Assembly: GCF_017163755.1 (NCBI RefSeq)
Contig: NZ_JAFIWC010000005.1
Coordinates: 1-64,000, forward strand
DNA from: Xanthomonas sp.
Lineage (GTDB): Bacteria > Pseudomonadota > Gammaproteobacteria > Xanthomonadales > Xanthomonadaceae
DNA: 64,000 bases
Reading direction: 5' to 3'
The notes under the pieces are model-generated. The model had not been told where the DNA came from. It saw nothing but the letters and a program-made list of their open reading frames with translations, and ran no database searches. Positions 5,383 to 37,901 of the stretch are shown here, in pieces. The position numbers and the translations under genes are program-made. Positions within the stretch are counted from its first letter, which is position 1, and each line of letters starts with the position of its first letter.

Positions 5383-5390
5383 GAGCCGGG

Positions 5391-5422
5391 AGTGGGGAAT
5401 CGGGATTCGGGATTCGGCAACG
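5391..5422. repeat. GGGATTC-type short tandem repeat
   Basis: Degenerate heptamers (GGGAATC, GGGATTC, GGGATTC) lie just after the tldD stop. The same family occurs near 1, 5590, 24870, 33405, 33530 and 59380. Confidence 0.6.
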
Positions 5423-5550
5423 CCAGGCGCGCGCCATGCGCGCGCAGTGGCGATAGCGGCCTGGCGGGCAGGGTCCTGCGGCGGCGCACCCGACACCGAG
5501 GCGGCACCGCGTTAGTGGCGGCCAGGCGCAGCAGCGGCCGGCGGCGCGGT

Positions 5551-6138
5551 TCAGTCGCGCTCGTCGGCCTCGTCGCCGTCCGCGTCTTCGAGTCCCGAGT
5601 CCCGAGCCCCGGGTCCCGCTCCCTCCAGCACCAGCTCGCGCAACTCCCGGAACAATTCCCGATAGGCGTGCGGCGGCTTGTTCTTCAGCCGCTCCTCCTT
5701 GGCGTTGCGGATCAGCTGGCGCAGCCGCTGGCGGTCGACGTCGGGGTATTCGGCCAGCAGTTCGGACAGCGCCGCGTCGCCGTCGGCGAGCAGCCGTTCG
5801 CGCCAGCCCTCGACCCGGTGCATCGCTGCCACCTCGCGGCGCGCGCCGTCGCTGTTGACGTCCATCGCCTCGCGGATCGCGTCCAGGGTCTCGTCGTCCT
5901 CGCGCCGCATCTGCTTGGCCAGGAACGCCAGCTGCCGCTTGTGCGCGATGTGCGAGGTGATGCGCTTGGCTTCGGCGATATGCGGCACCAGCGACTCGGG
6001 CACCGGCAGCTTGGCCAGCTGCGCCGGCGTCAGCGCCACCAGCTTCTCGCCCAGGGTCAGGATCTCCAGCGCCTCGCGGCGCTGCTGGCTGCGGCTGTCG
6101 CCGCGGAATTCACCGGTGTCTTCGTCGCGTCCGCGCAT
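5551..6138 (-). CDS. yjgA: YjgA/DarP family ribosome-associated protein (DUF615)
   Basis: This 195-residue, highly charged, helical protein belongs to the DUF615/YjgA family. In E. coli the protein (183 residues, also named DarP) binds late 50S assembly intermediates. The core, residues 10-170, holds the family pattern, including SRSQQRRE near the N-terminus, [16 protein letters not shown] in the middle and [11 protein letters not shown] towards the end. The C-terminal tail (about 172-195) is acidic and includes [11 protein letters not shown], encoded by a copy of the GAGTCCC/GGGACTC repeat that is otherwise intergenic here. The repeat therefore seems to have extended the reading frame. It is divergent from pmbA, with a 49-bp tandem hairpin repeat between the two starts. 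Confidence 0.92.
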
Positions 6139-6178
6139 GGTCGTACTACTCGATCAGTCTGAAACATCAAATTAGAAA

Positions 6179-6318
6179 GTCCGGCCATGGATGGCCGGGC
6201 TCCTGCGAAGGAATCGCACCATTCCAAGTCCGGCCATGGATGGCCGGGCTCTTGCGAAGGAATCGCACCATTCCAAGTCCGGCCATGGAGGGCCGGACTC
6301 CTGCGAAGGGACCCGCAT
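6179..6318. repeat. Three tandem copies of a 49-bp palindrome-containing repeat
   Basis: Units start at 6179, 6228 and 6277. Each begins GTCCGGCCATGG and continues to CACCATTCCAA; the third copy diverges after about 35 bases. The third copy holds a perfect inverted repeat GTCCGGCC...GGCCGGAC (6-base loop), and the first two hold the same with one or two mismatches. The array fills the gap between the divergent yjgA and pmbA genes. Translated copies of this element look like a protein N-terminus, so it can mislead start calls. Confidence 0.9.
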
Positions 6319-6333
6319 AACAAGGATAAAGCA

Positions 6334-7698
6334 TTGAACGCGATCACCTCCGACTTGCGCCGCGACGACAGCCTGGATCGCCTGGACCGGCTGTCCGAGA
6401 TCTCCCAACGGCTGCTGGCGCGCGCGCGCGAGCTCGGCGCCAGCCAGGCCGAGGTCAGCTGCAGCGAAGAGCGCGGGCTGGACATCAACGTGCGCCTGGG
6501 CGCGGTGGAGACGGTCGAGTCGACCCGCGACCGCGGTATCGGCGTGACCGTCTATTTCGGCCAGCGCAAGGGCAGCGCCAGCACCGCCGACCTGCACGAA
6601 TCCAGCCTGGAAGCGACCGTGGCCCAGGCCTGCGCGATCGCGCGCTACACCGAGGACGACGTGGCCTCCGGCCTGGCCGACGCGGCGCTGATGGCGCGGC
6701 AGATGCCGGAGCTGGACCGCTGGCATCCGTGGGCGCTGGACGCGGACGAGGCGATCGACCTGGCGCTGGCATGCGAGGCCGCCGGCCGCGACGCCGATCC
6801 GCGCGTGGCCAATTCCGACGGCGCGTCGGTGGGCAGCAGCGAGAGCCTGTCGGTCTACGCCAATTCGCACGGGTTCATCGGCCGCGAGCGCAGTACCCAC
6901 CATTCGATTGGTTGCGCGCTGATCGCCGGCCACGGCGACGGCATGCAGCGCGACAGCTGGTACAGCAGCGCCCTGGCGCGCGAGGACCTGGAAGCGCCGG
7001 CGGCGATCGGCCGCCACGCCGCCGAGCGCACCGTGGCCCGGCTGCAGCCGCGGTCGCTGGCCACCGGCGAACTGCCGGTGCTGTTCGCGCCGGAAATGGC
7101 GCGCTCGCTGATCGGCCACCTGCTCGGCGCGGTATCCGGCGGCGCGCTGTACCGCCGCGCCAGCTTCCTGCTCGACAGCGTCGGCACCCAGCTGTTCCCG
7201 GACTGGTTCGCCATCGACGAGAAGCCGCACCTGCGCCGCGGCCTGCGCTCGGCCACCTTCGACGGCGAGGGCGTGGCCACCCGCGAGGCGCCGCTGGTCA
7301 GCGCCGGCGTGCTGCAGCGCTATGTGCTCGGCAGCTACTCGGCACGCAAGCTGGGCCTGCAGACCACCGCCAACGCCGGCGGCGTGCACAACCTACAGGT
7401 GGCCGCCAACGCCGACGACCTGGCGTCGATCGCCGCCGGCATCCGCCGCGGGCTGCTGGTCACCGAGTTGATGGGGCAGGGCGTCAACAACGTCACCGGC
7501 GACTATTCGCGCGGCGCGGCCGGGTTCTGGATCGAGAACGGCGCCATCGCCTATCCGGTGGACGAGGTCACCATCGCCGGCAACCTGCGCGACATGTACC
7601 AGCGCATCGAGGCGGTCGGCCGCGACATCGACGTGCGCTCGCACGTGCACATCGGCTCGGTGCTGATCGGCAAGATGACCGTGGCCGGCAACGACTGA
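6334..7698 (+). CDS. pmbA: Metalloprotease PmbA (TldE)
   Basis: This is the 454-residue TldE/PmbA subunit, partner of TldD in the heteromeric protease; E. coli PmbA has 450 residues. It lacks the HExxxH motif, as PmbA proteins do. The start chosen is TTG at 6334, because AAGGA at 6322-6326 sits at good distance and the product then matches the family. Earlier in-frame starts (from 6187) would translate the 49-bp tandem repeats. It is divergent from yjgA and functionally paired with tldD at 3940. Confidence 0.92.
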   Translation: MNAITSDLRRDDSLDRLDRLSEISQRLLARARELGASQAEVSCSEERGLDINVRLGAVETVESTRDRGIGVTVYFGQRKGSASTADLHESSLEATVAQACAIARYTEDDVASGLADAALMARQMPELDRWHPWALDADEAIDLALACEAAGRDADPRVANSDGASVGSSESLSVYANSHGFIGRERSTHHSIGCALIAGHGDGMQRDSWYSSALAREDLEAPAAIGRHAAERTVARLQPRSLATGELPVLFAPEMARSLIGHLLGAVSGGALYRRASFLLDSVGTQLFPDWFAIDEKPHLRRGLRSATFDGEGVATREAPLVSAGVLQRYVLGSYSARKLGLQTTANAGGVHNLQVAANADDLASIAAGIRRGLLVTELMGQGVNNVTGDYSRGAAGFWIENGAIAYPVDEVTIAGNLRDMYQRIEAVGRDIDVRSHVHIGSVLIGKMTVAGND

Positions 7699-18467: not shown

Positions 18468-18910
18468 GCGCCCAGGCCGGCCAAGAGCGCTATGCCGTGC
18501 AGGCCGAGGTGCCCCCGGTGGACGACTACCGGCGGCTGCGGGTCGCCGCCGGCCTGTCGCCCAAGTCGCAGGACGCGGCCGCGCGCGGCCTGCCGAACAG
18601 CTGTTTCGCGGTCACCGTGCGCCACCAGGGACGCGTCGTCGGCATGGGCCGCATCGTCGGCGACGGCGGCTGCTTCTTCCAGATCGTCGATATCGCCGTC
18701 GAACCGGCGCACCAGCGGCGCGGCCTGGGCCGGCGGATCATGGCCGCGCTGCGCGACTGGCTGGATACGCACGCGGCCGATGGCGCCTATGTATCGCTGC
18801 TCGCCGATGGCGAGGCGCGCCATCTGTACGCGCAGTTCGGCTTCGTCGAGACCGCGCCGGCGTCGGTCGGCATGGCCTGGGTGGCGCGGCGGGGAACGGC
18901 GGATGGCTGA
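18464..18910 (+). CDS. GNAT family N-acetyltransferase
   Basis: This 148-residue single-domain GNAT protein has the acetyl-CoA binding motif A pattern VEPAHQRRGLGRRIMAAL at about 79-96, preceded by the beta4 strand FFQIVDIAV. The C-terminal YAQFGFVETAP matches the beta6-beta7 region. The acceptor is unknown. The ATG overlaps the TGA of the upstream symporter gene, so the two are probably co-transcribed. The 573 bases that follow carry no gene but lead into the fap-like promoter region. Confidence 0.88.
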   Translation: MSAQAGQERYAVQAEVPPVDDYRRLRVAAGLSPKSQDAAARGLPNSCFAVTVRHQGRVVGMGRIVGDGGCFFQIVDIAVEPAHQRRGLGRRIMAALRDWLDTHAADGAYVSLLADGEARHLYAQFGFVETAPASVGMAWVARRGTADG

Positions 18911-19000
18911 GGCCGCTGGCGGCCAGTCCGGTCACGGCTCGCATGCGTCGCGTTGGTGATGCGCGCTGAAGCATTTCGGCCGACGTCCGCGTCGAAAAGG

Positions 19001-19084
19001 TGGGAGCGGCTTCATTCGCGACCGACGATGTACCGCCAGGGCCGGTCGCGGTTGACGGCCACAGGCCACCGATAGCCGCTCCCC
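19001..19084. repeat. Nested inverted-repeat element (Xanthomonas-type palindromic element)
   Basis: Outer arms GGGAGCGGCT (19002-19011) and AGCCGCTCCC (19074-19083) are perfect inverted repeats. Inner arms CGCGACCG (19017-19024) and CGGTCGCG (19043-19050) are also perfect. The half-element GTGGGAGCGGCT followed by GGTCGCG recurs at 63630-63675. It may form a large hairpin between the GNAT gene and the fap-like promoter. Confidence 0.7.
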
Positions 19085-19147
19085 CAGAATCGGTTGGATG
19101 AGGAAGGCCGCCTCGCTCCGGGGGGTGTAAACCTGTAAGCGGGCACG

Positions 19148-19165
19148 TGTTGCAGCGCTGCAACA
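19148..19165. promoter_or_regulatory. 18-bp perfect palindrome, candidate enhancer-binding site
   Basis: TGTTGCAGC/GCTGCAACA is a perfect palindrome centred about 285 bp upstream of the sigma-54 promoter at 19433. Perfect dyads at this distance are typical upstream activator sites for Fis-type HTH enhancer-binding proteins. Assignment to the regulator at 24950-26284 is an inference. Confidence 0.45.
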
Positions 19166-19432
19166 GGGGCCTTTCTGCCCGGGCGCTCGTCCGCATGCGT
19201 GCGCGGACGCCCTTGCTGCCGGTATCGCCAAGACCCTGATCTCGAGCCGGATCAACGACTTGGCGGAAGCGCCGCGCCAATGCCAGGCTCGGCGCACGGC
19301 GCGCGGCGGCGCCCACTAAGCCGGTTTCGCCGCCGCCAGCGCCCGGCCCGGCGGCCCGATGCCGTTACACAACCGCCACTGCCGAGCCTGCGCGAGAATC
19401 TCAAACGATTGATTTTTAAGTAGATATTGGCT

Positions 19433-19448
19433 TGGCACGGTAACTGCT
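19433..19448 (+). promoter_or_regulatory. Sigma-54 (RpoN) promoter of the fap-like operon
   Basis: TGGCACG-GTAA-CTGCT matches the -24/-12 consensus TGGCACG-N4-TTGCW with one mismatch. The invariant GG (19434-19435) and GC (19446-19447) are exactly 10 bases apart. Transcription would start near 19459, about 25 bases before the fapA ATG. Confidence 0.82.
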
Positions 19449-19483
19449 CCCAGCTCCGCACACACTTCAGCGGGGCAGGGAAC

Positions 19484-20011
19484 ATGGACACTGCAGCCAG
19501 GCATCGGGTTCTACGCGGCATCGGCGCCGCGGCGTGGCTGGCGCTGTTTCCGGCGCTGGCGCTGGCCTCCGGCGCGCGCCAGGGCGTCAAGGCGCAGCCC
19601 GGCGAGATCGTCGTGCTGCGCGATGTCTCTGCGCGTCCGGCCTATCGTCCCGCGCCGCCCGGCATGGCGCTGATCGCCGACCCCTCCCCCGAGCGCGAAC
19701 TGCAGCAGACCCTGGGCGGCGGCCTGGACGAGCTGTCCGATGGCGACTACGCGGCGATGGATGCCACCGCCGCCGCGCCCGGCCATGCCGGCGGCGCGAG
19801 CCGCGTCGAGCGCATCGCCGGCGGCGCGATCGAGGGCACGCTGGGCCGCGCCAGCGGCGCGGGCGGCAGCCTGTCCGGCGCCGCGCTGAGCCAGGGCATC
19901 GGCGTGCCGATGGGCGCGGTCGGCAGCGCCACGCGCGGCATCGGCGATCAGGTGCGCGGCGCGCTGGCGCAGTTCCCGCTGGCGCAGCCGGCCGCCGGCG
20001 CGGGCCGCTGA
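19484..20011 (+). CDS. fapA: FapA-like exported protein, first gene of fap-like operon
   Basis: This 175-residue protein has a signal peptide (hydrophobic 11-27, cleavage near ALA-S). The mature part is rich in Ala, Gly and Ser, with a Gly-rich amphipathic C-terminal half (about 105-165). In the Pseudomonas fap operon the first gene encodes FapA (about 150 residues), a periplasmic protein that affects fibre composition. Identity here rests on position and size more than on motifs, so the symbol is provisional. The ATG at 19484 follows GGGGCAGGG and lies about 25 bases below the predicted sigma-54 start. fapB starts one base after its stop. The alternative upstream start at 19427 would lie in the promoter. 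Confidence 0.68.
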   Translation: MDTAARHRVLRGIGAAAWLALFPALALASGARQGVKAQPGEIVVLRDVSARPAYRPAPPGMALIADPSPERELQQTLGGGLDELSDGDYAAMDATAAAPGHAGGASRVERIAGGAIEGTLGRASGAGGSLSGAALSQGIGVPMGAVGSATRGIGDQVRGALAQFPLAQPAAGAGR

Positions 20012-20012
20012 G

Positions 20013-20645
20013 ATGCGTCCCGCCTTCGCCGCCTGCAGCGCGTGGCTGCTTGCGCTGGCCAGCGCCGCGGCGCCGGCGCAGCAGCGCGACGACTACCGCG
20101 CGATGCTCGGCTACCTGGCCGACAGCCGCATCGACGGACGCAGCTTCGCCGGTGCGCAGGGCGCCATCGCCGCGAACCTGGCTGCCGGCGACCTCAACCT
20201 GCAGGCCAACCTGCGCAGCTTCGCCAGCGGCACGCAAGCGCTGGCCACGGTGCAGGCCGCGCAGGTCCATGGCGACGACCGCCACGACGGCCCGCTGCAT
20301 GCCAGCGCGCGGCTGGGCGGCGACGCGCTGCGCGGCGCCAGCGGACTGGCGTCGATCAATCAGGCCAGCGGCAGCGGCAACGCGGAACTCAATTCCGTCG
20401 CCGCGTCGCTGGCGCAACAGGGCATACGCGAAGCGAGCGACGAGGCCCTGGCCTCGAGCGCCGTGGTCGCGTCGGCAGGGGAGCGGAACGCCGGCGACGC
20501 CGTCGGCGGAACCGGAACCCGCAGCGTGGCGGTGGAAGCCACCGCGCTGCGCGGTTTCCAAGGCGTGCTGCAACTCAATCAGATCGCGGGCTCGGGCAAT
20601 GCGGCGGACAACCAATTCAGTCTTTCCGTGCAGGCCGGTCCGTGA
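20013..20645 (+). CDS. fapB: FapB-like amyloid nucleator (three imperfect repeats)
   Basis: This 210-residue protein has a signal peptide ending near APA-Q (residue 22). Three repeats follow the FapB/FapC amyloid pattern, in which a Gly is followed by N-x-A-x-G-x-x-N-x-x-x-N. Their cores are at about 51-68 (ANLAAGDLNLQAN), 111-130 (SINQASGSGNAELN) and 184-204 (LNQIAGSGNAADN). In Pseudomonas FapB is a minor fibre component thought to nucleate FapC. The mature protein has no Cys. It is the second gene of the operon; fapC follows after 45 bases with its own AGGAGAGGG ribosome site. Confidence is good from repeats, order and size. Confidence 0.78.
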   Translation: MRPAFAACSAWLLALASAAAPAQQRDDYRAMLGYLADSRIDGRSFAGAQGAIAANLAAGDLNLQANLRSFASGTQALATVQAAQVHGDDRHDGPLHASARLGGDALRGASGLASINQASGSGNAELNSVAASLAQQGIREASDEALASSAVVASAGERNAGDAVGGTGTRSVAVEATALRGFQGVLQLNQIAGSGNAADNQFSLSVQAGP

Positions 20646-20690
20646 GCAATCAAACCACCCGATAAGCACCACACACTAGGAGAGGGCGAC

Positions 20691-21917
20691 ATGAAAACCA
20701 ACGGAAAGTGGACGTTGCTGGCGATGGCGGTTTCCGCGCTGGCGGCCAGCACGGCCGCACAGGCCGGTGAACGCGATCACCAGCAGGGCGACCGTTCGCG
20801 GCACAACGTGGAGGTCAACCTGGAGAAGGACCTGCGGCTGAGTTCGGACATCGAATTCTCCGGCGATCCCAGCATCAGCGGCGACATCGATCTGGACTCG
20901 GCGGCGATCGCGATCATCGACAACCGCCAGTCGATCACCGCCAACGGCGCGCTCAACGACAAGCTGAGCAACGAGGCCTCGATCGCCGACGACGTGGGCA
21001 GCAACGCCGCCGGCAACCTCGGCTTCAACGCCGCCGCCGGCGACAACAACGCGCAGGACAACGCCGCGGCGCTGTCGGCGGCCGACGCCAGCTTCAGCTT
21101 CGGCATGGCCGACGCCGAGGTGTTCGTCAACCAGTACGGCGCCAACAACCAGACCATGAACCTCGGCGTCACCAACGCCGCCAGCCTGGGCGGCAACGCC
21201 TTCAGCGGGGCCTCGGGCAACATCGGCGTCAACGTCGCCTCGGGCAACAACAACGGGCAGAAGAACGCGCTGGCCGCCTCGGTGGCCACCACCGCGTACG
21301 CGCAGTCCAGCATCAGCTCCAACCAGGTGTCCACCGGCAACATGGTCAACAACGCGGGCATCGTGCAGGAGTACACCGAGACCACCGACGTGTCGCTGAG
21401 CGGCCCGGTCAGCGGCTGGACCGCGGCGCTGGGCTACGGCGTCTACGAGGGCTCCAGCTCGGGCAGCTACAGCGGCACCGGCAACGCGTACCAGAAGACC
21501 AATTTCTATCCGGACAACTGGACCGGCGACAGCCATCCGGCCGGCAATGCCACCGGGCACAGCGATTGGGACAACGAGACGCAGGGCGCGGTGATGAACC
21601 CGTACGCCGAAGGCGTCGGCGGCATCGCCTTCGACACCGACGAGGAAGGCAGCTACAGCGGCAGCGAGTCCGGGCAACTGGGCTTCCTCGAACTGGGCGT
21701 GGCCGACCTGTACGCGGAGCTGAGCGGCAGCGTCGCCACCACGCGCTACATCGTGGTCGATGCGACCAACACCGCCTCGCTGAGCGGCAGCGCCTTCGCC
21801 AACGCCTCCGGCAACATCGGCGTCAACGTCGCCGCCGGCACCGGCAACCTGCAGGCCAACAGCCTGGCCCTGGCCGTGGCGCAGCCGTCCACCGGCGGCG
21901 GTGGCGGCAGCGAGTAA
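20691..21917 (+). CDS. fapC: FapC-like major functional amyloid subunit
   Basis: This 408-residue protein has a clear signal peptide (cleavage AQA-G at 25/26). Three repeats carry the Fap amyloid core: GNLGFNAAAGDNNAQDN at 108-124, GNIGVNVASGNNNGQKN at 176-192 and GNIGVNVAAGTGNLQAN at 374-390. The last two are also alike in the residues before the core. Between repeats 2 and 3 lies a long low-complexity linker (about 200-355) rich in Gly, Ser, Tyr, Trp and Asp. Mature FapC is the main fibre protein of Pseudomonas biofilm amyloid (about 250-340 residues). No cysteine occurs, so the C-terminal CxxC known in Pseudomonas FapC is absent. The tail is GGGGGSE. A strong AGGAGAGGG ribosome site fits high expression. 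Confidence 0.85.
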   Translation: MKTNGKWTLLAMAVSALAASTAAQAGERDHQQGDRSRHNVEVNLEKDLRLSSDIEFSGDPSISGDIDLDSAAIAIIDNRQSITANGALNDKLSNEASIADDVGSNAAGNLGFNAAAGDNNAQDNAAALSAADASFSFGMADAEVFVNQYGANNQTMNLGVTNAASLGGNAFSGASGNIGVNVASGNNNGQKNALAASVATTAYAQSSISSNQVSTGNMVNNAGIVQEYTETTDVSLSGPVSGWTAALGYGVYEGSSSGSYSGTGNAYQKTNFYPDNWTGDSHPAGNATGHSDWDNETQGAVMNPYAEGVGGIAFDTDEEGSYSGSESGQLGFLELGVADLYAELSGSVATTRYIVVDATNTASLSGSAFANASGNIGVNVAAGTGNLQANSLALAVAQPSTGGGGGSE

Positions 21918-21994
21918 CGCGGCAACGGTTGCGCAGGCAACCGGCGTCAGTGCGACACCCGGTGCCCCTCCAAGCGCCGGCGTTCCCTGGACTC

Positions 21995-22020
21995 CTCGCC
22001 GCGCCCACCCGCGCGGCGAG
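21995..22020 (+). terminator. Perfect 10-bp hairpin between fapC and fapD (candidate attenuator)
   Basis: CTCGCCGCGC and GCGCGGCGAG form a perfect stem with a 6-base loop, followed by GGCTCCTTTCCC. It lies in the 131-bp gap between the fibre-subunit gene and the export genes. It could terminate part of the transcripts or protect the fapABC mRNA end. The T-tract is poor. Confidence 0.5.
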
Positions 22021-22048
22021 GGCTCCTTTCCCGAATTCGAGGTGACCG

Positions 22049-22741
22049 ATGCGCATCGCGTTGTTCCTGCTGTCGTGCTCGCTGGCCGCCGCGGCGCCGT
22101 CGCGCGCCGGCGAAGTCCGCTTCGGCGGCGTGCTGCCCGACGGCAGCACGTACGTACGCGAAGTGGAGAGCATGCAGGAAGGCCGCTTCCGCCACATCGT
22201 GCGCCAGCGCACCGACTACAGCTGCGGCGCCGCCGCGCTGGCCACGGTGCTGCGCTACGCCTACCGCCTGGACACCGACGAGAGCACGGTGATCGAAGGC
22301 ATGATGGGGGTCTCCGACCCGGAACTGGTGCGCCAGCGCGGATTCTCGCTGCTGGACATCAAACGCTACGTGGAATCGCTCGGGCTGCGCGGACGCGGCT
22401 ACCGCGTGGACGAAACCCGCCTGCAGTCGCTGCGCGTGCCCGGCCTGGTGCTGATGGACGTGCGCGGCTTCCGCCACTTCGTGGTGCTCAAGCAGGTGCA
22501 GGGCGACAGCGTCGAACTGGCCGATCCGATCCTGGGCAACCGCAGCATCGGCGTGGACGAGTTCCTGGCGTCGTGGCCCTCGCGCGCGGTGTTCGTGGTG
22601 ATCGGCAGCGACTTCGATCGCAACACCGTGCTGCTGCAGCCGGGCAGCAAGCCCAGCGCACGCGCGCTGTACGCGCGCCAGGGGCCGATCACCGACGCGG
22701 AGCTGGTCGATTTCGGCTTCACCCATGCCGATCTTTTCTGA
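22049..22741 (+). CDS. fapD: FapD-like C39 family cysteine peptidase
   Basis: This 230-residue protein has a signal peptide (about 1-20) and a C39 (bacteriocin-processing type) peptidase fold. The catalytic set is intact: Gln53 and Cys59 in QRTDYSCGAAAL, His143 in FRHFVVL and Asp159 in ADPILG. In the Pseudomonas fap operon FapD (about 225 residues) is the C39 peptidase required for FapC export. The ATG at 22049 is preceded by GAGGTG. It starts 131 bases after fapC, beyond a hairpin; fapE follows after 13 bases. Confidence 0.88.
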   Translation: MRIALFLLSCSLAAAAPSRAGEVRFGGVLPDGSTYVREVESMQEGRFRHIVRQRTDYSCGAAALATVLRYAYRLDTDESTVIEGMMGVSDPELVRQRGFSLLDIKRYVESLGLRGRGYRVDETRLQSLRVPGLVLMDVRGFRHFVVLKQVQGDSVELADPILGNRSIGVDEFLASWPSRAVFVVIGSDFDRNTVLLQPGSKPSARALYARQGPITDAELVDFGFTHADLF

Positions 22742-22754
22742 AAGGAGTCTTGCC

Positions 22755-23546
22755 ATGTCGCCCCTCTCTTGCACGCGCACGCCCCATCCGTGGCTGCTGC
22801 TGGCGCTGCTGTGCCCGTCGCTGGCCAGCGCCGCCGATGCGCCGGCCGCGCCCGGAACCGGGCTGAAGGAGATCCCCGACCCCGAGCTGAACCTGATGCG
22901 CGGGCGCTACACCGTCGGCGGCGACGCGGTGGCGTGGTTCGGGGTGTCGATGGTGTCGCAATGGCAGACCGGCAGCGGCCAGGTCCTGCACAGCGCGCTG
23001 ACCCTGGGCATGGACTTCTCCCGCGGCGGCGCCACGCCCCGGCTCAGTTTCAGCCCCAGCGTCAGCATCACCGCCGCCGACGCGCCGTTGCCGGGCGGCG
23101 CAGCGGGCGCGACGCGCAGCGTCGATGCCGCCGGGCTGCAGAACGTGTCCGGGCTGGTGCAGGGCGTGCAGATCGCCGGCGACGGCAACCGCGCCAGCAA
23201 CCACGCCCAGTTGCGCGTGCGCGACGGCGCGGCGCCGTCGGCGGATACGGGCGGCGCGGCCGCCAGCGTCGGCCAGCAACTCGGCGGCGCGCAGGCGCTG
23301 GCCAGCTACGACGGCGACGCGGCGCGCGTGCTGCTGCAGGTCGAGGGCCAGGGCGCGGTGCAGCAGTGGATCCGCAACGGCAGCGTCGGCCAGAGCGTGC
23401 AGCTCAGCGGCGACGGCCAGCAGGTCAGCAACCGCCTGCAGATCGACCTGGTCCGGCAGTCGCTGGGCGACACCGCACCGCTCACCCAGCACGTGGCGCA
23501 GGCGATCTCTTTCGCGCGCGGGCTGGGTACCGGAGTGGGGCGGTGA
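22755..23546 (+). CDS. fapE: FapE-like minor fibre/secreted protein
   Basis: This 263-residue protein has a signal peptide ending near ASA-AD (residue 27). Near the N-terminus it has ELNLMRGRYTVGGDAVAWFGVSM (about 44-66, shown here in outline only), a motif I associate with FapE-type proteins. The rest is beta-rich with alternating Gly/Gln/Asn units, such as QIAGDGNRASN, and a VQQWIRNGSVGQ segment near 205-216. In Pseudomonas FapE (about 230 residues) is a minor fibre-associated protein. The start at 22755 is chosen because AAAGGAGTC lies at 22741-22749; the earlier ATG at 22725 is inside fapD. Its TGA overlaps the GTG start of fapF. Confidence 0.72.
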   Translation: MSPLSCTRTPHPWLLLALLCPSLASAADAPAAPGTGLKEIPDPELNLMRGRYTVGGDAVAWFGVSMVSQWQTGSGQVLHSALTLGMDFSRGGATPRLSFSPSVSITAADAPLPGGAAGATRSVDAAGLQNVSGLVQGVQIAGDGNRASNHAQLRVRDGAAPSADTGGAAASVGQQLGGAQALASYDGDAARVLLQVEGQGAVQQWIRNGSVGQSVQLSGDGQQVSNRLQIDLVRQSLGDTAPLTQHVAQAISFARGLGTGVGR

Positions 23547-24865
23547 GGCAGCGGCACGGCGGGCTCCGCGCGCCTGCGCCGCCTTCGCAGCGGCCGCTGG
23601 CGCTGGCGCTGGCGTTGACGCTGTCCGCCGCCGCGATGCCGGCGCTGGCGCAGGAACAGGCCGCCGACGCCGCCGAGGTCCAGGCGCTGCTGGCCAGGCT
23701 GGAAACGCTCAAGGCCAGTTATGCGCAGGAAGTGCGGCGCCTGCGCGAACTGGACATGCAGGTGCAGGCGATGCAGGCACGCCTGAACGGCAAGGCCGGG
23801 GCGCTCGCGGCGCCGGCCGCGCCGGTCGCCGCCGCGCCACCGCCGCCGTCGGCAGACAGCTACGCCAGCAGCGCCGCCGAGGCGCAGGACGCGAAGGACG
23901 CCTCGCGGCGCAGCGTCGACGACGTCAAGCAGCAGCAGGCGGTGCTGTTCAACCAGAAGCTCACCCTCGAAAACAGCCTCACCTACGCGCGCTACGATCG
24001 CAAGCAGCTGAGCCTGAACGGCTTCCTGGCGCTGGATGCGATCTTTCTCGGCAACATCGCGATCGAGAACGTGGAATCCGATTCGCTGACCTACGACCTG
24101 GCCGCGCGCTGGGGCATCAGTCCGCGCCTGACGATGAGCCTGGACGTGCCCTACGTGGCGCGCAAGACCGTGTACCAGAAGGGCGGCGCGGGCGGGTCGG
24201 CGGCGGCCATCGCGCAGGAGCAGACCGACGGCAACGGCATCGGTGACGCGACGCTCGGCGCCAACTACCGCCTGTTCCAGGAGCGCGGCTGGCGCCCGGA
24301 GACGGTGGCCACGCTCGGCGTGACCGCGCCGACCGGGCGCGCGCCCTACGGCGTGGACTGGCGCGTGCTCGAGCGCGACGACGACCAGTTCATCCGCTTC
24401 GCGGTGCCCAGCCGCCAGCCCACCGGCAACGGCGTGTGGCAGGCCAACGTGGGCCTGTCGGCGGTGAAGACCGCCGATCCGGCGATCCTGTTCGCCAACG
24501 TCGGCTACATCCACTCCTTCGCGCGCAGCTTCGACGACCTGGACAGCAACCCGGACACGGTCAATCCCGGCGAAGTGCGCCTGGGCGGCGCGTTCTACTT
24601 CGGCGCCGGCGTCGCCTTCGCGTTCAACGAGCGCACCAGCCTGAGCCTGTCCTTCAGCGACAAACTCAACGCGCGCGCGTCCACCCGCTACCAGGGCGGG
24701 CAGTGGGTCAAGGTGATCGGCAGCGACGGCAATGCCGCCACGCTGAACCTCGGCGTCACCTACGCGCTGAACCAGCACGCCACGCTGGTGAGCATGCTCG
24801 GCATCGGCCTGACCCCGGATTCGCCGGACTTCAGCCTGGCGTTCAAGTTGCCCTACATGTTGTAG
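23543..24865 (+). CDS. fapF: FapF-like outer-membrane amyloid exporter
   Basis: This 440-residue protein begins with GTG overlapping the fapE stop (GTGA), with GGAGTGGGG upstream. Order of parts: a signal peptide with a long basic leader (cleavage near ALA-Q, residue 37), a coiled coil at 39-82, an Ala/Pro linker at 85-103, a short helical segment at 105-135, and a beta-barrel from about 138 that ends in FSLAFKLPYML. FapF of Pseudomonas is a trimeric 12-stranded barrel with an N-terminal coiled coil and a helical plug, and it secretes FapB, FapC and FapE. The match in layout and length (about 430) is strong. Last gene of the operon, convergent with the regulator gene. Confidence 0.88.
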   Translation: MRQRHGGLRAPAPPSQRPLALALALTLSAAAMPALAQEQAADAAEVQALLARLETLKASYAQEVRRLRELDMQVQAMQARLNGKAGALAAPAAPVAAAPPPPSADSYASSAAEAQDAKDASRRSVDDVKQQQAVLFNQKLTLENSLTYARYDRKQLSLNGFLALDAIFLGNIAIENVESDSLTYDLAARWGISPRLTMSLDVPYVARKTVYQKGGAGGSAAAIAQEQTDGNGIGDATLGANYRLFQERGWRPETVATLGVTAPTGRAPYGVDWRVLERDDDQFIRFAVPSRQPTGNGVWQANVGLSAVKTADPAILFANVGYIHSFARSFDDLDSNPDTVNPGEVRLGGAFYFGAGVAFAFNERTSLSLSFSDKLNARASTRYQGGQWVKVIGSDGNAATLNLGVTYALNQHATLVSMLGIGLTPDSPDFSLAFKLPYML

Positions 24866-24867
24866 GT

Positions 24868-24900
24868 CGGGGATTGGGGATTTCGGGATTGGGGATTCGG
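24868..24900. repeat. GGGATT-type short repeat between fapF and regulator
   Basis: Degenerate GGGGATT/CGGGATT units fill the short convergent gap after fapF. They belong to the dispersed GGGACTC/GGGATTC family. Confidence 0.55.
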
Positions 24901-24949
24901 TGTGGCATTGCCGGCGCTCTCTGCAAGCCCGGATCGGCGCGTCGTTTCC

Positions 24950-26284
24950 TTATTCCCTCATCTTCTCGAGGGCCACTCCATGACGGCGGCACATCCGGTA
25001 CACGGTGACCCGCGACAGCTGCATGCGCCGCGCGCAGGCGCTGACGTTGAAGGCGCTTTCGTGCAGGCAGCGCAGCAGCGCGTCGCGTTCGGCCTGCGCG
25101 CGCGCCGTGTCCAGCGGGGCGTGGCCGTCGCCGCTGGGCGCCGACAGTTCCAGTTCCACCGGGCTGATCAGTTCGTCTTCGGCCACCACCGCGGCGCGCT
25201 GCACCCGGTTGAGCAGTTCGCGCACGTTGCCGGGCCAGGCGAACGTGGCCATCGCCGCGCGCGCGGCATGGCTGAAGCCGCGCGCGCGGGTGGCGTGGCG
25301 GCTGCGGAAGGCCTGCAGGAAATGCTGCGCGAGCAGTTCGATGTCGCCACCGCGCTCGTGCAGCGGCGGCATGTGCAGGCGCAGCACGTTGAGCCGGTAG
25401 TACAGGTCGCTGCGGAAACGGCCATGCTCCACCGCCCGCTCCAGATCCACGTGGGTGGCGGCGATGATGCGCACGTCCACCTGCACCGGCTGGTGGCTGC
25501 CGACGCGTTCGATGGTGCCTTCCTGCAGCACGCGCAGCAGGTTGGTCTGCACGTCCAGCGGCAGGTCGCCGATCTCGTCGAGGAACACGCTGCCGCCGGC
25601 GGCGGACTCGAACAGGCCCAGGCGCCGCGCGCTGGCGCCGGTGAAGGCGCCGCGTTCGTGGCCGAACAGTTCCGACTGCACCAGGTTGGGCGGCAGCGCG
25701 CCGCAGTTGATCGCGGCGAACGGGCGCTGCCGGCGCGGCGACAGGTCGTGCAGCGCGTGCGCGGCGACCTCCTTGCCGGTTCCGGTCTGGCCGGTGATCA
25801 GCACCGGCAGGTCCACCGGCGCCAGCTTGCGCACGCTGGCACGGGTCGCGCACAGCGCCGGGCTCTGCCCGATCAGCGCGTCGATGCCGCCGTGCGCGCG
25901 GCATGCCTCGCCGCCCAGGCCGTCGAGCGTGCGCAGCACCCGCGGCAGGTCCAGCGGCATCGCGAAGGTGTCCACGCAGCTGCGCAGCAGGCGCTGCACC
26001 CGCGGCTCCCGGGTCGGCGTGCGCGCCGAGGTCATCGCCACCAGCGGCAGGTAACGGTGGTCGCCGAGCAGTTGTTCGACCTGGGCCAGGCCGTCGGTGG
26101 CGCCGTCGCGCAGGTCGACCATGCCCACGACCGTGTCGTCGCCGCGCAGGCCGATGCCGGCCGCGTCGCCCGGGGCCACCGCGCGCAGGCGCCAGCCCGC
26201 CGCGGCGAGCGCGTCGCGTTCGCTGCCGCCGGGGTGGCCGAACCAGATGATGCAGCGCTTGCAGAAATCGGGCATTGCCGCCAT
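24950..26284 (-). CDS. Sigma-54-dependent transcriptional activator (VpsR-like)
   Basis: This 444-residue enhancer-binding protein has an N-terminal receiver-like domain (about 8-125) resembling VpsR-type regulators. The AAA+ domain has Walker A GQTGTGKE (165-172), the sigma-54 contact loop GAFTGA (212-217), Walker B GSVFLDE (231-237) and WPGNVREL (350-357). A Fis-type HTH lies at about 413-435. The intact GAFTGA loop shows it can activate sigma-54 promoters. It is convergent with the fap-like operon, which has a clear sigma-54 promoter, so it is the obvious candidate activator; VpsR itself responds to cyclic di-GMP. The start is uncertain: ATG at 26284 or 26275; an in-frame upstream extension to 26452 is Arg/Pro-rich and unlikely. 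Confidence 0.88.
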   Translation of the reverse strand: MAAMPDFCKRCIIWFGHPGGSERDALAAAGWRLRAVAPGDAAGIGLRGDDTVVGMVDLRDGATDGLAQVEQLLGDHRYLPLVAMTSARTPTREPRVQRLLRSCVDTFAMPLDLPRVLRTLDGLGGEACRAHGGIDALIGQSPALCATRASVRKLAPVDLPVLITGQTGTGKEVAAHALHDLSPRRQRPFAAINCGALPPNLVQSELFGHERGAFTGASARRLGLFESAAGGSVFLDEIGDLPLDVQTNLLRVLQEGTIERVGSHQPVQVDVRIIAATHVDLERAVEHGRFRSDLYYRLNVLRLHMPPLHERGGDIELLAQHFLQAFRSRHATRARGFSHAARAAMATFAWPGNVRELLNRVQRAAVVAEDELISPVELELSAPSGDGHAPLDTARAQAERDALLRCLHESAFNVSACARRMQLSRVTVYRMCRRHGVALEKMRE

Positions 26285-26537
26285 GCGTAGTCCGCCATCG
26301 AGCGTCGGCGCCGGCGGGTGCGCAGGGAAATCGCAGCAAACGCCGGCCGTGCCGCCCCACGTCCGGACCGGAACCTCCGCAGGAGGCGGGCGGGGGCGCG
26401 GTCGCGGCCGGTGGCCGCGATCGGTGCGTCGCCTGCGGAGTGGTACTGGCAAGTAGAACGCCGGCCGCGCGCGGAAGCGGCCATCGGGCAGGGCGCCGTG
26501 GCAGACTCGCGCTTCCTTCCCGTGCCATGGAGCACCG

Positions 26538-27084: not shown

Positions 27085-27894
27085 TTACATCGCGACCCGG
27101 CGCGCCTGCAGGAACTTCGCGCTCCAGTAGCCGCTGGTCAGCGTGTCCACGCGCACGTCCTTGCCGCGGCTCGGCGCGTGCAGGAAGCGGCCTTCGCCGA
27201 CGTACAGGCCGACGTGGTCGACGCGGCCCTTGCGGCCGAAGAACACCAGGTCGCCCGGCGCCAGCGCGTTGCGGTCCTTGATCAGTTCGGCATTGGCTTC
27301 GTGGGCCATCTCGCGCGACACGCGCGGCAGCTCGATGCCCAGCGCGGTGCGGAACACATAGCCGATCAGGCCGCTGCAGTCGAAACCGCCGTCCGGCGTG
27401 TCGCCGCCCCAGCGGTACGGGGTGCCCAGCAGGGTCATCGCGCGCTTGAGCACCGACTGCACCTTGTCGCCGCCCGGCACCACGCCTTCGCGCAGCGGCG
27501 GCTGGGACACGTCGTAGTTGGCGAGCAGGCGGCTGATGTCGCCGGCGAACATCGCCGAGCGGTCCATCAGCGGGATGGTGTCGTTGGCGGCCAGGTGCGG
27601 CAGCAGCGCGGCCAGGGTGGCGGTGGCCGCGGCGTCGGCCTTGCTGCGCGCCGCGTTCTGCGCCTGGGCGGCCGGCGCCGGCTTGGCGGCGGCCGTGGTG
27701 GCGGGCACGCCGGTCACCGGGGCGGCGACGGCGCCGATCTGTTCGGGGACCACCGCGGCGGCGGTGTCGGTGGGAGCGGACTGGGCCAGGGCCGGAAGGG
27801 CCGAGAAACAGAGCGAGGCGCTGCAGAAGAGGCGGAAGGCGGCCCGGCGGCGAGCGGCGGTCTTGCCTGGAGAGGTCTTGGCTTCAGTCGTCAC
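27085..27894 (-). CDS. Exported C40 family peptidase (NlpC/P60)
   Basis: This 269-residue protein has a signal peptide (about 20-37, ALA-Q), an Ala/Pro-rich spacer to about 100, and a C-terminal NlpC/P60 domain. The catalytic Cys173 is in DCSGLIGYVF, His227 in VDHVGLYVG and His239 in FLHAPS. Such enzymes cut D-glutamyl-meso-diaminopimelate bonds in peptidoglycan. A paralogue in the same orientation starts immediately upstream (28002-28538); the AT-rich gap between them (27895-28001) probably holds this gene's promoter. Confidence 0.9.
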   Translation of the reverse strand: MTTEAKTSPGKTAARRRAAFRLFCSASLCFSALPALAQSAPTDTAAAVVPEQIGAVAAPVTGVPATTAAAKPAPAAQAQNAARSKADAAATATLAALLPHLAANDTIPLMDRSAMFAGDISRLLANYDVSQPPLREGVVPGGDKVQSVLKRAMTLLGTPYRWGGDTPDGGFDCSGLIGYVFRTALGIELPRVSREMAHEANAELIKDRNALAPGDLVFFGRKGRVDHVGLYVGEGRFLHAPSRGKDVRVDTLTSGYWSAKFLQARRVAM

Positions 27895-28001: not shown

Positions 28002-28538
28002 TCACCGCAAAACCCGCTTCGCGCCTGAATAGTGGTCGCGCCAATACGGGCCATCCAGGTAGTCCAGGCGCACCGTTCCACCGCTGTTGGGCGCATGCAC
28101 GAAGCGGCCTTCGCCCACATAGATGCCGACGTGGCTGACGCTGCCGCCGCTGCCGAAGAACACCAGGTCGCCGGCGGCCAGGCGCTGCGGCTCGATCCGC
28201 GGGCCCTGCACCGCGGCCAGGTCGTGCGAGGTGCGCGGCAGCTTCAGGTCGAGCATGTCGCGGTAGACGTAGGCGACCAGCCCGCTGCAGTCGAAGCCGG
28301 ACTCGGGGGTGTTGCCGCCGTAGCGATAGGGCGTGCCGACCAGCCCGAGCGCGCGCATCAGCACCGCGTTGGCCGCGGCCGGGTCGGCCGGCGGCACCTG
28401 CGGCCAGCTGCGCATCGCCGGCGGCGGGCGCGAGGGGCGCACGTCCTGGCGGCCGCAGCCGGCCAGCGCGAGCGCGCACAGCAGCCCGGCGAGCGACGCC
28501 CGGCGCCATGCGTGCGGTGAAACTGGCTTGTTATGCAT
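28002..28538 (-). CDS. C40 family peptidase lipoprotein (NlpC/P60)
   Basis: This 178-residue predicted lipoprotein has the lipobox LAGC with Cys28. The NlpC/P60 domain has catalytic Cys84 in DCSGLVAYVY, His136 in VSHVGIYVG and His148 in FVHAPN. It is similar along its length to the neighbouring 269-residue protein (shared TPYR.GG.TP..GFDCSGL and GDLVFFG), so the pair looks like a tandem duplication with one copy membrane-anchored. It probably acts on peptidoglycan cross-bridge peptides, as E. coli NlpC or MepS does. Confidence 0.9.
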   Translation of the reverse strand: MHNKPVSPHAWRRASLAGLLCALALAGCGRQDVRPSRPPPAMRSWPQVPPADPAAANAVLMRALGLVGTPYRYGGNTPESGFDCSGLVAYVYRDMLDLKLPRTSHDLAAVQGPRIEPQRLAAGDLVFFGSGGSVSHVGIYVGEGRFVHAPNSGGTVRLDYLDGPYWRDHYSGAKRVLR

Positions 28539-35888: not shown

Positions 35889-37901
35889 TTACGGCCACAG
35901 ATGGATCTGTTCGGCCTGGCTGCGCACCATCGGCTGTCCGGCCTTGCAGGTGAAGGTGGCGGCGAAGCCGGGCAGGTTGGCCAGCGGCCCGTTGGCGCGC
36001 CAGCGGCCGGGCGCACGCACGTCGGCGGTCAGGCGCTGCACCGCTTCGTTCGGCGACAGCTGCTGCGCCCACAGTCCGGCCCAGGCCTTGTAGAAGGCCT
36101 GCTTGCCGGCGTCGGTCGCCGCCGGCTGGGCGGCGGCATAGGCCTGCCACGCCAGCTCGACGCTGCCGATGTCGGCCAGGTTCTCGTCCTGGGTCAGCTG
36201 GCCGTTGACCTTGGCCGCCTTCACCCCGGGGAAGTCGTAGGCGCCGTACTGCGCGGCCGCGCGCGTGCCGAGCACGGTCCAGGCGCTCTTGTCGGCCGGA
36301 GTCCACCAGCTGCGCAGCTGGCCCTGGGCGTCGACCAGGCTGCCCTTGCCGTCGATCGCGCCGGTCAGCTCGTGCGCGACCAGCGCGCCGTACGCGCCGT
36401 AGCGCACGGCGTCGTCGCCGCCGGCGGCGAACACCGGCGGCTGCAGCACCGCGGCGGTGACGATCAGGCGGTTCTGCGCGATGTCGTAGGTCAGCGCCGG
36501 CTGCTGCGGCAGCACGTCCCAGCGGCGGTCGGCGTTGCCCTTGCCGATGCGCTTCATCTCCTCGCGATGGCGCCAGGTGGAGGCGATCAGCATGTTGCCG
36601 CCGAAGCTGCCGCGGCCCATCGGCTGCACGCTGTAGTCCAGGTCGCGGCGCGGCGCGCCGATCTCGATCTTCAGCGCGTTGAGCTTGGCTTGCGCCTCGT
36701 TGCGCGCCGGCTCGCTCAGCCACGGGCTGCGCTTGATCGCCGCGACCTGCGCCTCGCGCACCTGGTCGGCGATCACCCCGGCCTGGCGGCGCGTGTCGGC
36801 GCTGAGGTAGCGGCCGACGTACTCGCGGCCGAGCATCGGGCCGGCGGCGACGTTGATCGCCTCGAGCACCTGCGCCCAGCGCGGCGCCGGCAGCGTGCGG
36901 CCTTCCAGCACGCGGCCGCGGAACTCGAAGCTGGCGTCGCGGAAGCTCTTGGACAGGTACGGCGCCATCGCATCGCCCACGCGCCAGCGCAGGTAGGCCT
37001 TCCACTGGTCCGGCTTGATGCTGGAGATCATGCCGTCGAGCTGCTTGAACATCTCCGGGTCGGCCATCGACACCAGGTCGTCGTTGACGCCCTGCGCTTT
37101 CAGGAACGCGTCCAGCTGCAGGTTGCGGTACTGCTTGGTCAGGTCCTTGGTGGAGATCGGCGCGTAGTTGTTGAACGGGTTGTTGATGCCGGCCAGCGAC
37201 TTGGAGCTGCGCGCCAGCGCGGTCTCGATCTGCAGCACCGACTGCGCGTCGGCCTCGAGCTTGGCCGCCGGGGTGCCGGTCAGGGTCAGGATCTGCTTGA
37301 CGTAGGCGCGGTAGCGGCCCATCAGCGCCACGGTATCGGCGTCGGTGCGGGTGTAGAAGGCCGGGTCGGGCATGCCCATGCCGCCCTGCATGAAGTAGCC
37401 GATGTGGCGGTCCAGCGCCTTGAGGTCGACGTCGGCGCCGAAGTTGAACGCCACCGGGATGCCGACCTGGTGCAGCGCGGCGATCGACGCCGGCACGTCC
37501 TTGGCCTTCTTGATCGCGTCGATGCGGCTGAGCAGCGGGGCGATCGGGTTGGACCCGTCCTTCTCCACCGCCGCCTCGTCCAGGCCGCTGGCCCAGAAAT
37601 CGCCCAGCGCCTTCTGCACGTCGTTCTGCGGCGTCTTCATCGACGCGTCGAGCAGGTCGCGCTGCTGTTGCTGCGCGCGCTCGGACAGCTGGCCCAGCGC
37701 GGTGACCGCGCCGCTCTGCGGCACCGGATTGCTCTTCAGCCAGTCGGCGTTGGCGTAATCGTAGAAGTCGGAGCAGGCGGTGCTGACCGCGGGCGCCTTG
37801 GCGGCGGCGCGCTTCTTCTTGGGCGCGGCATCGACGGATGCGGACAGCAGGGCGATCAGGCTGAAGCCGATGGCGAGGGCTAGCGGACGGGCGTTGGGCA
37901 T
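35889..37901 (-). CDS. M13 family metallopeptidase-like protein, probably inactive
   Basis: This 670-residue protein has a signal peptide (about 7-25, VDA-A) and the full M13 (neprilysin/PepO) architecture. The zinc motif HExxH reads HELTG at 510-514, so the second zinc-binding His is Gly. The third ligand region ENLADIGSVELAW is present. The histidine that stabilises the transition state (TDVHSPG in neprilysin, TDPHAPA in the paralogue next door) is replaced by Arg629 in TADVRAPG. The substrate-binding N-A-x-Y segment is also degraded (ALTYDIAQN). I infer a pseudopeptidase. It lies beside an intact paralogue at 38227-40341 in the same orientation. Confidence 0.9.
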   Translation of the reverse strand: MPNARPLALAIGFSLIALLSASVDAAPKKKRAAAKAPAVSTACSDFYDYANADWLKSNPVPQSGAVTALGQLSERAQQQQRDLLDASMKTPQNDVQKALGDFWASGLDEAAVEKDGSNPIAPLLSRIDAIKKAKDVPASIAALHQVGIPVAFNFGADVDLKALDRHIGYFMQGGMGMPDPAFYTRTDADTVALMGRYRAYVKQILTLTGTPAAKLEADAQSVLQIETALARSSKSLAGINNPFNNYAPISTKDLTKQYRNLQLDAFLKAQGVNDDLVSMADPEMFKQLDGMISSIKPDQWKAYLRWRVGDAMAPYLSKSFRDASFEFRGRVLEGRTLPAPRWAQVLEAINVAAGPMLGREYVGRYLSADTRRQAGVIADQVREAQVAAIKRSPWLSEPARNEAQAKLNALKIEIGAPRRDLDYSVQPMGRGSFGGNMLIASTWRHREEMKRIGKGNADRRWDVLPQQPALTYDIAQNRLIVTAAVLQPPVFAAGGDDAVRYGAYGALVAHELTGAIDGKGSLVDAQGQLRSWWTPADKSAWTVLGTRAAAQYGAYDFPGVKAAKVNGQLTQDENLADIGSVELAWQAYAAAQPAATDAGKQAFYKAWAGLWAQQLSPNEAVQRLTADVRAPGRWRANGPLANLPGFAATFTCKAGQPMVRSQAEQIHLWP

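Follow-up and report, generated by a model that had tools for sequence, protein, structure and literature searches.

Functional amyloid (Fap) systems are known from Pseudomonas, where fibre formation, secretion through FapF, a requirement for catalytically active FapD, regulation by RpoN and BrfA, and the sensing of cyclic di-GMP (c-di-GMP) have been described (PMC5557850, PMC9207406, PMC13101488; these and all other papers are cited here for part of their text). In P. fluorescens PF07, brfA is a 1,326-bp gene lying in reverse orientation just downstream of fapF, the -24/-12 promoter of fapA was mapped by 5'-rapid amplification of cDNA ends, and fap expression is lower in rpoN and brfA mutants (PMC9207406). 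Furthermore, c-di-GMP is sensed by BrfA in P. fluorescens (PMC13101488). In this work, a fap unit was analysed in a 64,000-nucleotide stretch of Xanthomonas sp. DNA (NCBI RefSeq assembly GCF_017163755.1, contig NZ_JAFIWC010000005.1, positions 1 to 64,000 of the forward strand), the whole of which is called the window below. The unit comprises a promoter, fapABCDEF and a regulatory gene, and occupies about 19148-26275. Judged from its sequence, it is very probably a complete Fap functional-amyloid locus with BrfA-type control; the completeness of the Fap system is backed by matches to family models, by relatives of known structure, by the order of the genes and by 80 similar named loci. With this operon, a known biofilm amyloid system gains one more host. 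A preliminary description of the stretch had noted that Fap was studied almost entirely in Pseudomonas; the premise that it is unusual elsewhere is not supported, because Fap was reported in Rhodanobacter and Stenotrophomonas (Xanthomonadales) in 2013 (PMC3792158) and 94 related loci were collected here.

The named loci are the best 80 of these 94, with titles mostly of Stenotrophomonas, Luteimonas, Lysobacter and Pseudoxanthomonas. All 80 were classed here as Lysobacterales, although the titles of L080 (Bacillus subtilis) and L141 (a gammaproteobacterial metagenome-assembled genome) disagree; L080 and L088, the latter titled [Pseudomonas] hibiscicola, were counted as Stenotrophomonas. Beyond the named set, 20 loci with both FapB and FapC were compared, of which 12 belong to the G220 family (named after genome G220) and 8 do not. 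The G220 family was taken as Pseudomonadaceae because G220 has a PrrF RNA above the cut-off and because, among the 119 genomes of this family, 31 pass the FapE cut-off. The coding part of the unit in the window is as follows (family model, E-value and score with curated cut-off in brackets).

19484-20011, plus strand: fapA, putative chaperone or accessory protein, 175 residues, ATG start (NF058617, 2.2e-7, 31.3 bits, cut-off 110)
20013-20645, plus strand: fapB, minor amyloid subunit, 210 residues, three loose repeats (NF058557, 1.6e-21, 76.8 bits, cut-off 190)
20691-21917, plus strand: fapC, major amyloid subunit, 408 residues, three exact repeats, without CxxC (NF058558, 2.4e-56, 191.8 bits, cut-off 195)
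22049-22741, plus strand: fapD, C39 cysteine peptidase, 230 residues (NF058616, 3.1e-75, 252.3 bits, cut-off 330; PF03412, 1.9e-18)
22755-23546, plus strand: fapE, fibre-associated protein, 263 residues (NF058559, 1.8e-27, 96.1 bits, cut-off 250)
23543-24865, plus strand: fapF, outer-membrane fibre-subunit transporter, 440 residues (NF058560, 2.3e-112, 375.9 bits, cut-off 700)
24950-26275, minus strand: probable brfA orthologue, 1,326 bp, convergent with fapF, VpsR-like N-terminus (PF00158, 1.1e-69; PF02954, 8.3e-5)

The six fap genes form an intact run of consecutive, open plus-strand open reading frames (ORFs) at 19484-24865. In the profile search every product significantly matched its own NCBIfam Fap model, with E-values between 2.2e-7 and 2.3e-112. 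The complete fapABCDEF-like operon of the preliminary description is borne out in gene sizes and order. For fapE there are two possible starts, at 22725 (273 residues) or at 22755 (263 residues). The Pfam search of the six products recognised only the C39 domain in FapD and a barrel family in FapF. The FapF model of NCBIfam spans residues 25-439 of the product, the solved FapF structure 5o65 matches residues 123-439 by sequence search (2.4e-80), in line with the C-terminal barrel proposed earlier, and coiled-coil families match residues 34-148 weakly. The catalytic set claimed for FapD (Q53, C59, H143, D159) is present. The double-glycine protease 6mpz of the PDB matches FapD by sequence (5.6e-8), and the predicted fold of FapD is nearest to C39 peptidase domains, including leader-bound 6mpz (predicted local distance difference test, pLDDT, of the model 72.8). 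For FapC, the solved fibrils 9nqd and 9u4u are matched by sequence at 1.6e-13 and 2.8e-13, respectively. The repeat G-x-N-x-A-x-G-x-x-N-x-x-x-N, said to occur three times in each subunit, was found in three exact copies in FapC; FapB has no exact copy but carries the looser form ..N..[ASG]G..N...N three times. The structure alignments used 39 of 79 FapD and 39 of 79 FapC sequences.

Since FapD and FapF also match the FilB and FilC models, the locus could be a FapD/FapF-type (Fil-like) secretion locus instead of Fap. We rejected this as extremely unlikely, because the Fap models score far above the Fil models for both proteins and FapA, FapB, FapC and FapE are present as well. Unlike the window, the loci L042-L044 have matches to FapD and FapF only.

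Family, position and length make the gene at 24950-26275 look like a BrfA orthologue. In 79 of the 80 named loci a BrfA-like gene is found at a distance of 9-520 bp from fap (63 convergent after fapF, 16 before fapA), and in the 80th, which has no BrfA-like match, the contig stops 349 bp past fapF. Beyond the named set such a gene was found 25-1,582 bp from fap in all 20 loci with FapB and FapC. The BrfA match of L103 is only partial, at 51% over 287 residues. From the linkage (79/80 and 20/20), the c-di-GMP switch of P. fluorescens would seem to have belonged to the Fap system for a long time. The regulatory gene also belongs to the unit, which therefore does not end at 24865 as first described. 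A 2018 review, in the part cited, states that the fap operon encodes no regulatory proteins and names its control as future work (PMC6173800). An unreported, novel fap regulator was considered and rejected because BrfA is already published (PMC9207406, PMC13101488); the fap control circuit is already known in P. fluorescens and is not new. In the S. maltophilia-type loci (L077-L079, L084 and similar, 16 of the 80), brfA stands before fapA and is divergent, not convergent after fapF. The stretches of L077-L079 and L084 gave no match to the SDF and NlpC genes that neighbour fap in the window, and the fap unit of these loci seems to have moved.

Upstream of fapA, three control elements were located.

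19433-19447, plus strand: sigma-54 (-24/-12) promoter TGGCACGGTAACTGC, 51 bp upstream of the fapA ATG
19148-19165, unstranded, -336 from fapA: perfect 18-bp palindrome TGTTGCA-N4-TGCAACA, TGTTGCAGCGCTGCAACA, candidate upstream enhancer for the regulator
19363-19369, unstranded, -121 from fapA: half-site CGTTACA, candidate enhancer, with TGTAACA/G at about -116 to -121 in many relatives

Position 19433, taken at first as the start of the operon, is the first T of the promoter, and the fapA ATG is at 19484. With a threshold score of at least 12.5 and weights devised for the present analysis, a sigma-54 site was found 22-56 bp upstream of fapA in 77 of 78 regions (78 of 81 upstream regions were used), compared with 106 of 1,497 random control stretches. 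A stricter pattern was found in 68 of 78 regions and in 10 of 1,503 random stretches. The genome has two sigma-54 genes. The word TGTAACA occurs upstream of fapA in 64 of 77 regions (77 of 81 being used for the enhancer-word count) and in none of 730 control stretches; it is itself absent upstream of the window's fapA. In many of the regions listed it is part of an imperfect 18-bp palindrome near -210, with a second half-site near -118, and TGTATCA-N4-TGCAACA occurs in L208, L211 and L216, which are loci beyond the named set. Read from sequence, the TGTAACA-type words and palindromes would be BrfA sites. Conservation of the control sites is good within the named loci and less regular outside them.

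Several observations speak against a complete Fap locus with BrfA-type control. None of the six products reached the curated equivalog cut-off of its NCBIfam model, FapC coming nearest (191.8 vs 195 bits). None of the 79 FapC sequences of the window's set, the window included, contains CxxC, a motif called conserved in a review (PMC6173800), while it is found in 12 of 12 FapC of the G220 family and in 2 of the 8 other loci. The structural models are of uneven quality: pLDDT is below 50 at residues 49-55 of FapD, beside the active-site Gln, and the FapC model has low confidence (mean pLDDT 58.2), its best fold matches in the PDB being two FapC fibrils with E 3.9e-3 and template modelling (TM) scores of 0.19 or less. 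In the regulator the VpsR domain PF20161 scores 22 bits, under the cut-off of 23.7, and the best PDB matches are ZraR and FleQ; VpsR ranks lower, aligned over residues 23-375. Beyond the named loci, where start codons were uncurated, the sigma-54 site (at least 12.5) was found in 14 of 20 regions at varied distances and an enhancer-type word in 10 of 20. Moreover, the choice of the enhancer word and its count rest on one and the same set of sequences, and many of these loci are closely related.

With the system in place, the substrate of FapD comes into question. Secretion of FapC requires the catalytic Cys of FapD, and FapE has already been named the likeliest FapD substrate (PMC5557850). In Pseudomonas UK4, FapE is the sole Fap protein without peptides from the first ~70 residues (PMC5557850). 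In the window, the following element was found in FapE.

22872-22907, plus strand: C39-leader-like motif, residues 40-51 of FapE, IPDPELNLMRGR, predicted site of FapD recognition and of cleavage after R51

The motif lies after the signal peptide, and in the register of a C39 leader its residues are I(-12), E(-8), L(-7), M(-4), G(-2) and R(-1). For comparison, the ComA consensus is Leu(-12)-x3-Glu(-8)-Leu(-7), and the hydrophobic groove of LahT150 holds leader residues -4, -7 and -12 (PMC6363468). The pattern [LVIM]x4[LMIV]xx[MLIV]RG[RK] followed by Y or F occurs in 80 of 80 complete FapE sequences of the window and the named loci, the truncated gene of L142 being left out. In a further set of 48 sequences, four were removed because they belong to the window's family (L160, L164, L165 and L162, the last being the window itself); of the 44 left, 43 carry the motif, namely 30 of 30 in the G220 family (30 of its 33 matches had their loci examined) and 13 of 14 others. 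The single miss, L159, has a polar residue at -4 and R at -1. Outside FapE, the pattern occurs in only 1 of 8,906 stop-to-stop ORFs of at least 90 residues in the 80 named loci, and within the window it is confined to FapE (1 of 332 ORFs). Positions -12, -7, -4 to -1 and +1 are set by the search pattern, and -8 and -10 are free. The free position -8 is E in 77 of 78 sequences of the window's set, in 30 of 30 of the G220 family and, among the most distant sequences, in 7 of 13; at -10, D is found in 77 of 78, 30 of 30 and 9 of 13, respectively.

We lean slightly towards the view that FapE is the leader-bearing substrate of FapD, and that [LIV]xxxE[LM]xx[ML]RG[RK][YF] is a double-glycine leader relocated from the cytoplasm to the periplasm, with an altered last residue, whose removal switches on amyloid export via FapF. 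The canonical ending of a C39 leader is GG, GA or GS. It weighs against this view that the -1 residue is R in the window, and R or K at all 123 sites (as set by the pattern), not G, A or S. The motif would therefore be a variant C39 leader, if it is a leader at all. A second objection is that the Fap proteins have been described as lacking canonical C39 sequences, and that FapF was also considered as the FapD target (Rouse et al., PMC5557850). Alternatively, in a locus that is a Fap system all the same, the FapE motif would serve to dock FapE on the coiled coil of FapF or to target it there, with FapD cutting FapF or something else. We consider this possible but rather doubtful. In its favour, cleavage of FapF near GG motifs before the barrel was proposed as an alternative and FapE was said to contain a possible sequence targeting it for FapF secretion (PMC5557850), and the R/K ending points the same way. 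However, the motif keeps the spacing used by C39 proteases (-12, -8, -7, -4, -2), and the mass spectrometry of UK4 points at FapE (PMC5557850). A close form of the motif is also found in 76 of 78 FapE and in none of 78 FapA, 74 FapB, 79 FapC, 79 FapD and 74 FapF. A GG stretch in the window's FapA, ERELQQTLGG, was considered as a leader as well and dropped, its pattern being found in 1 of 78 FapA. On the view we lean towards, FapD would cut FapE after R51.

An earlier description of the FapE motif was not found in a literature search that left most subscription papers uncovered. The target of FapD is called unclear in the part of PMC5557850 cited here, and the motif would pinpoint one exact bond and a few residues in any Fap system. 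If the leader reading is true, the same FapE rule would apply to Fap systems from Pseudomonas to Stenotrophomonas.

A FapE homologue with the motif also occurs in another setting. In L220 (G321:C6:533874-544560), FapD, FapE and FapF homologues stand in a row at 4229-7144, and the 10.7-kb stretch has no match to FapB, FapC or BrfA. The L220 FapE (L158) retains the RGR motif, and a second FapE (L172) is encoded elsewhere in its genome. FapD-E-F may perhaps be a module that works without amyloid subunits. When a leader-like motif was sought with another pattern in other proteins of L042-L044, L175 and L220, one unconvincing match each was found in L043 and L044 and none elsewhere; this pattern also missed the FapE motif of L220. 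A FapD-like C39 gene in two pieces lies beside hypothetical genes on a 6.5-kb Acidithiobacillus plasmid (L174, NZ_CP118750.1).

We hypothesize that the Fap mechanism of Pseudomonas applies in the window's organism, by analogy, as follows. At high c-di-GMP, the BrfA orthologue (24950-26275) would bind the palindromic sites upstream of fapA and drive sigma-54 RNA polymerase from the promoter at 19433. The six Fap products would reach the periplasm via Sec. There, the periplasmic C39 peptidase FapD would recognise the leader-like motif of FapE and remove the N-terminal stretch after R51. This cleavage would license export through the FapF barrel of FapE and of both subunits, FapB and FapC, which would build the surface amyloid, FapE being a minor component of it.

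In the window, fap is preceded by SDF transporter and acetyltransferase genes and followed by thioesterase and NlpC/P60 genes. The FapF model has matches in 7 of 60 genomes, which are the window's own and 59 relatives. Besides the window's own genome, full fap loci occur in three, one of which has an additional locus with just FapD and FapF; two others have only such FapD/FapF loci, and the seventh gave a short, weak match. By profile search, FapF is found in none of the 19 other genomes of the same genus. The regulator has no close counterpart in these 19 genomes either, the best matches being 44-48% identical, and the BrfA-like proteins at the named fap loci are 51-66% identical. The thioesterase beside the regulator is found at 87-96% identity in all 19. 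A clean empty site is seen in the relative G013, where about 106 bp lie between the neighbours that enclose 18892-26494 (7.6 kb) in the window, and no fap remnants were found in 26 same-genus stretches from the 19 genomes.

The absence of FapF from the 19 genomes favours the reading that the fap genes are present but silent or decaying, with no amyloid function here. We hold this to be quite improbable, as the six fap ORFs and the regulator are open, and the catalytic residues, the promoter and the FapE motif are intact. The same absence, together with the empty site of G013 and the lack of remnants, is in favour of a recent gain of the operon by horizontal transfer in this one species. However, among the 80 named loci, 27 have the SDF transporter gene upstream of fap and 28 have NlpC/P60 downstream of it, these neighbours are shared with many Stenotrophomonas loci, and L127 (Pseudoxanthomonas) has the complete order SDF-fap-brfA-thioesterase-NlpC. 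The guanine-plus-cytosine content of fap (71.3%) also matches that of the window (71.5%). In the tree of FapD, FapF and BrfA (FastTree, midpoint root, 71 of 81 rows), the window falls in a clade with all 40 rows counted as Stenotrophomonas and nothing else (support 0.994), and its partner inside this clade is weakly supported (0.72). The window's genus and Stenotrophomonas are sister genera, so this clade is as expected. Because of the neighbours shared with Stenotrophomonas and the tree, a recent gain is unlikely; an old inheritance, followed by losses in the other species sampled, explains the data more simply and is likelier. The label "Xanthomonas-type" given to the genome by the preliminary description agrees with the two sigma-54 genes and with the nearest Fap relatives being Stenotrophomonas; L118, the only locus titled Xanthomonas (sp.), is not a nearest relative and stands outside the clade.

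In one same-genus genome (L071, G001:C1:397001-406000), about 4.5 kb of other DNA occupies the place of fap, including an ORF that by eye resembles a TonB-dependent receptor, so this site is variable in content. L080 (JAHREJ010000021.1) is a contig with the title Bacillus subtilis SK7B5; its fap locus is Stenotrophomonas-like (FapF 79%) and has SDF and NlpC neighbours, which probably reflects contamination or a wrong label. Two adjacent NlpC/P60 genes on the minus strand of the window (27085-27894 and 28002-28538) are about 73% identical in DNA over a shared stretch and probably reflect an old duplication. Adjacent genes for M13 family metallopeptidases are found at 35889-37901 and 38227-40341, also on the minus strand.

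Compared with the Fap systems of Pseudomonas UK4, PAO1 and PF07, the window has the same six genes in the same order, the subunit repeats, the C39 peptidase, the FapF barrel and a sigma-54 promoter, and it shares with P. fluorescens PF07 the convergent brfA beside fapF. It differs from Pseudomonas Fap in that its FapC has no CxxC, which is found in all 12 sampled loci presumed to be of Pseudomonadaceae, and in that its six products all fall under the NCBIfam equivalog cut-offs. With the Fap of Stenotrophomonas, Rhodanobacter and other Lysobacterales (PMC3792158), the gene set, the regulator, the lack of CxxC and a FapF of 60-80% identity are shared. Many Stenotrophomonas also have the same genomic neighbours. 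Unlike the Fap of other Lysobacterales, the unit of the window is flanked by thioesterase and acetyltransferase genes, and unlike S. maltophilia and similar loci (16/80) it does not have brfA before fapA. The regulator resembles PF07 BrfA (PMC9207406, PMC13101488) in its 1,326-bp gene, sigma-54 activation domain, Fis-type helix-turn-helix and reverse position beside fapF; it is VpsR-like at the N-terminus, was likened to PF07 BrfA by description and not by sequence, and is predicted by this analogy to bind c-di-GMP. BerB, VpsR and FleQ are kinds of regulator related to BrfA. As for the C39 proteases LahT150, PCAT1 and ComA, FapD is like them in its predicted fold and catalytic residues, and the FapE motif stands in the leader register. 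Unlike these proteases, FapD is a stand-alone and presumably periplasmic enzyme, and the FapE motif has R or K at -1 and R at -3.

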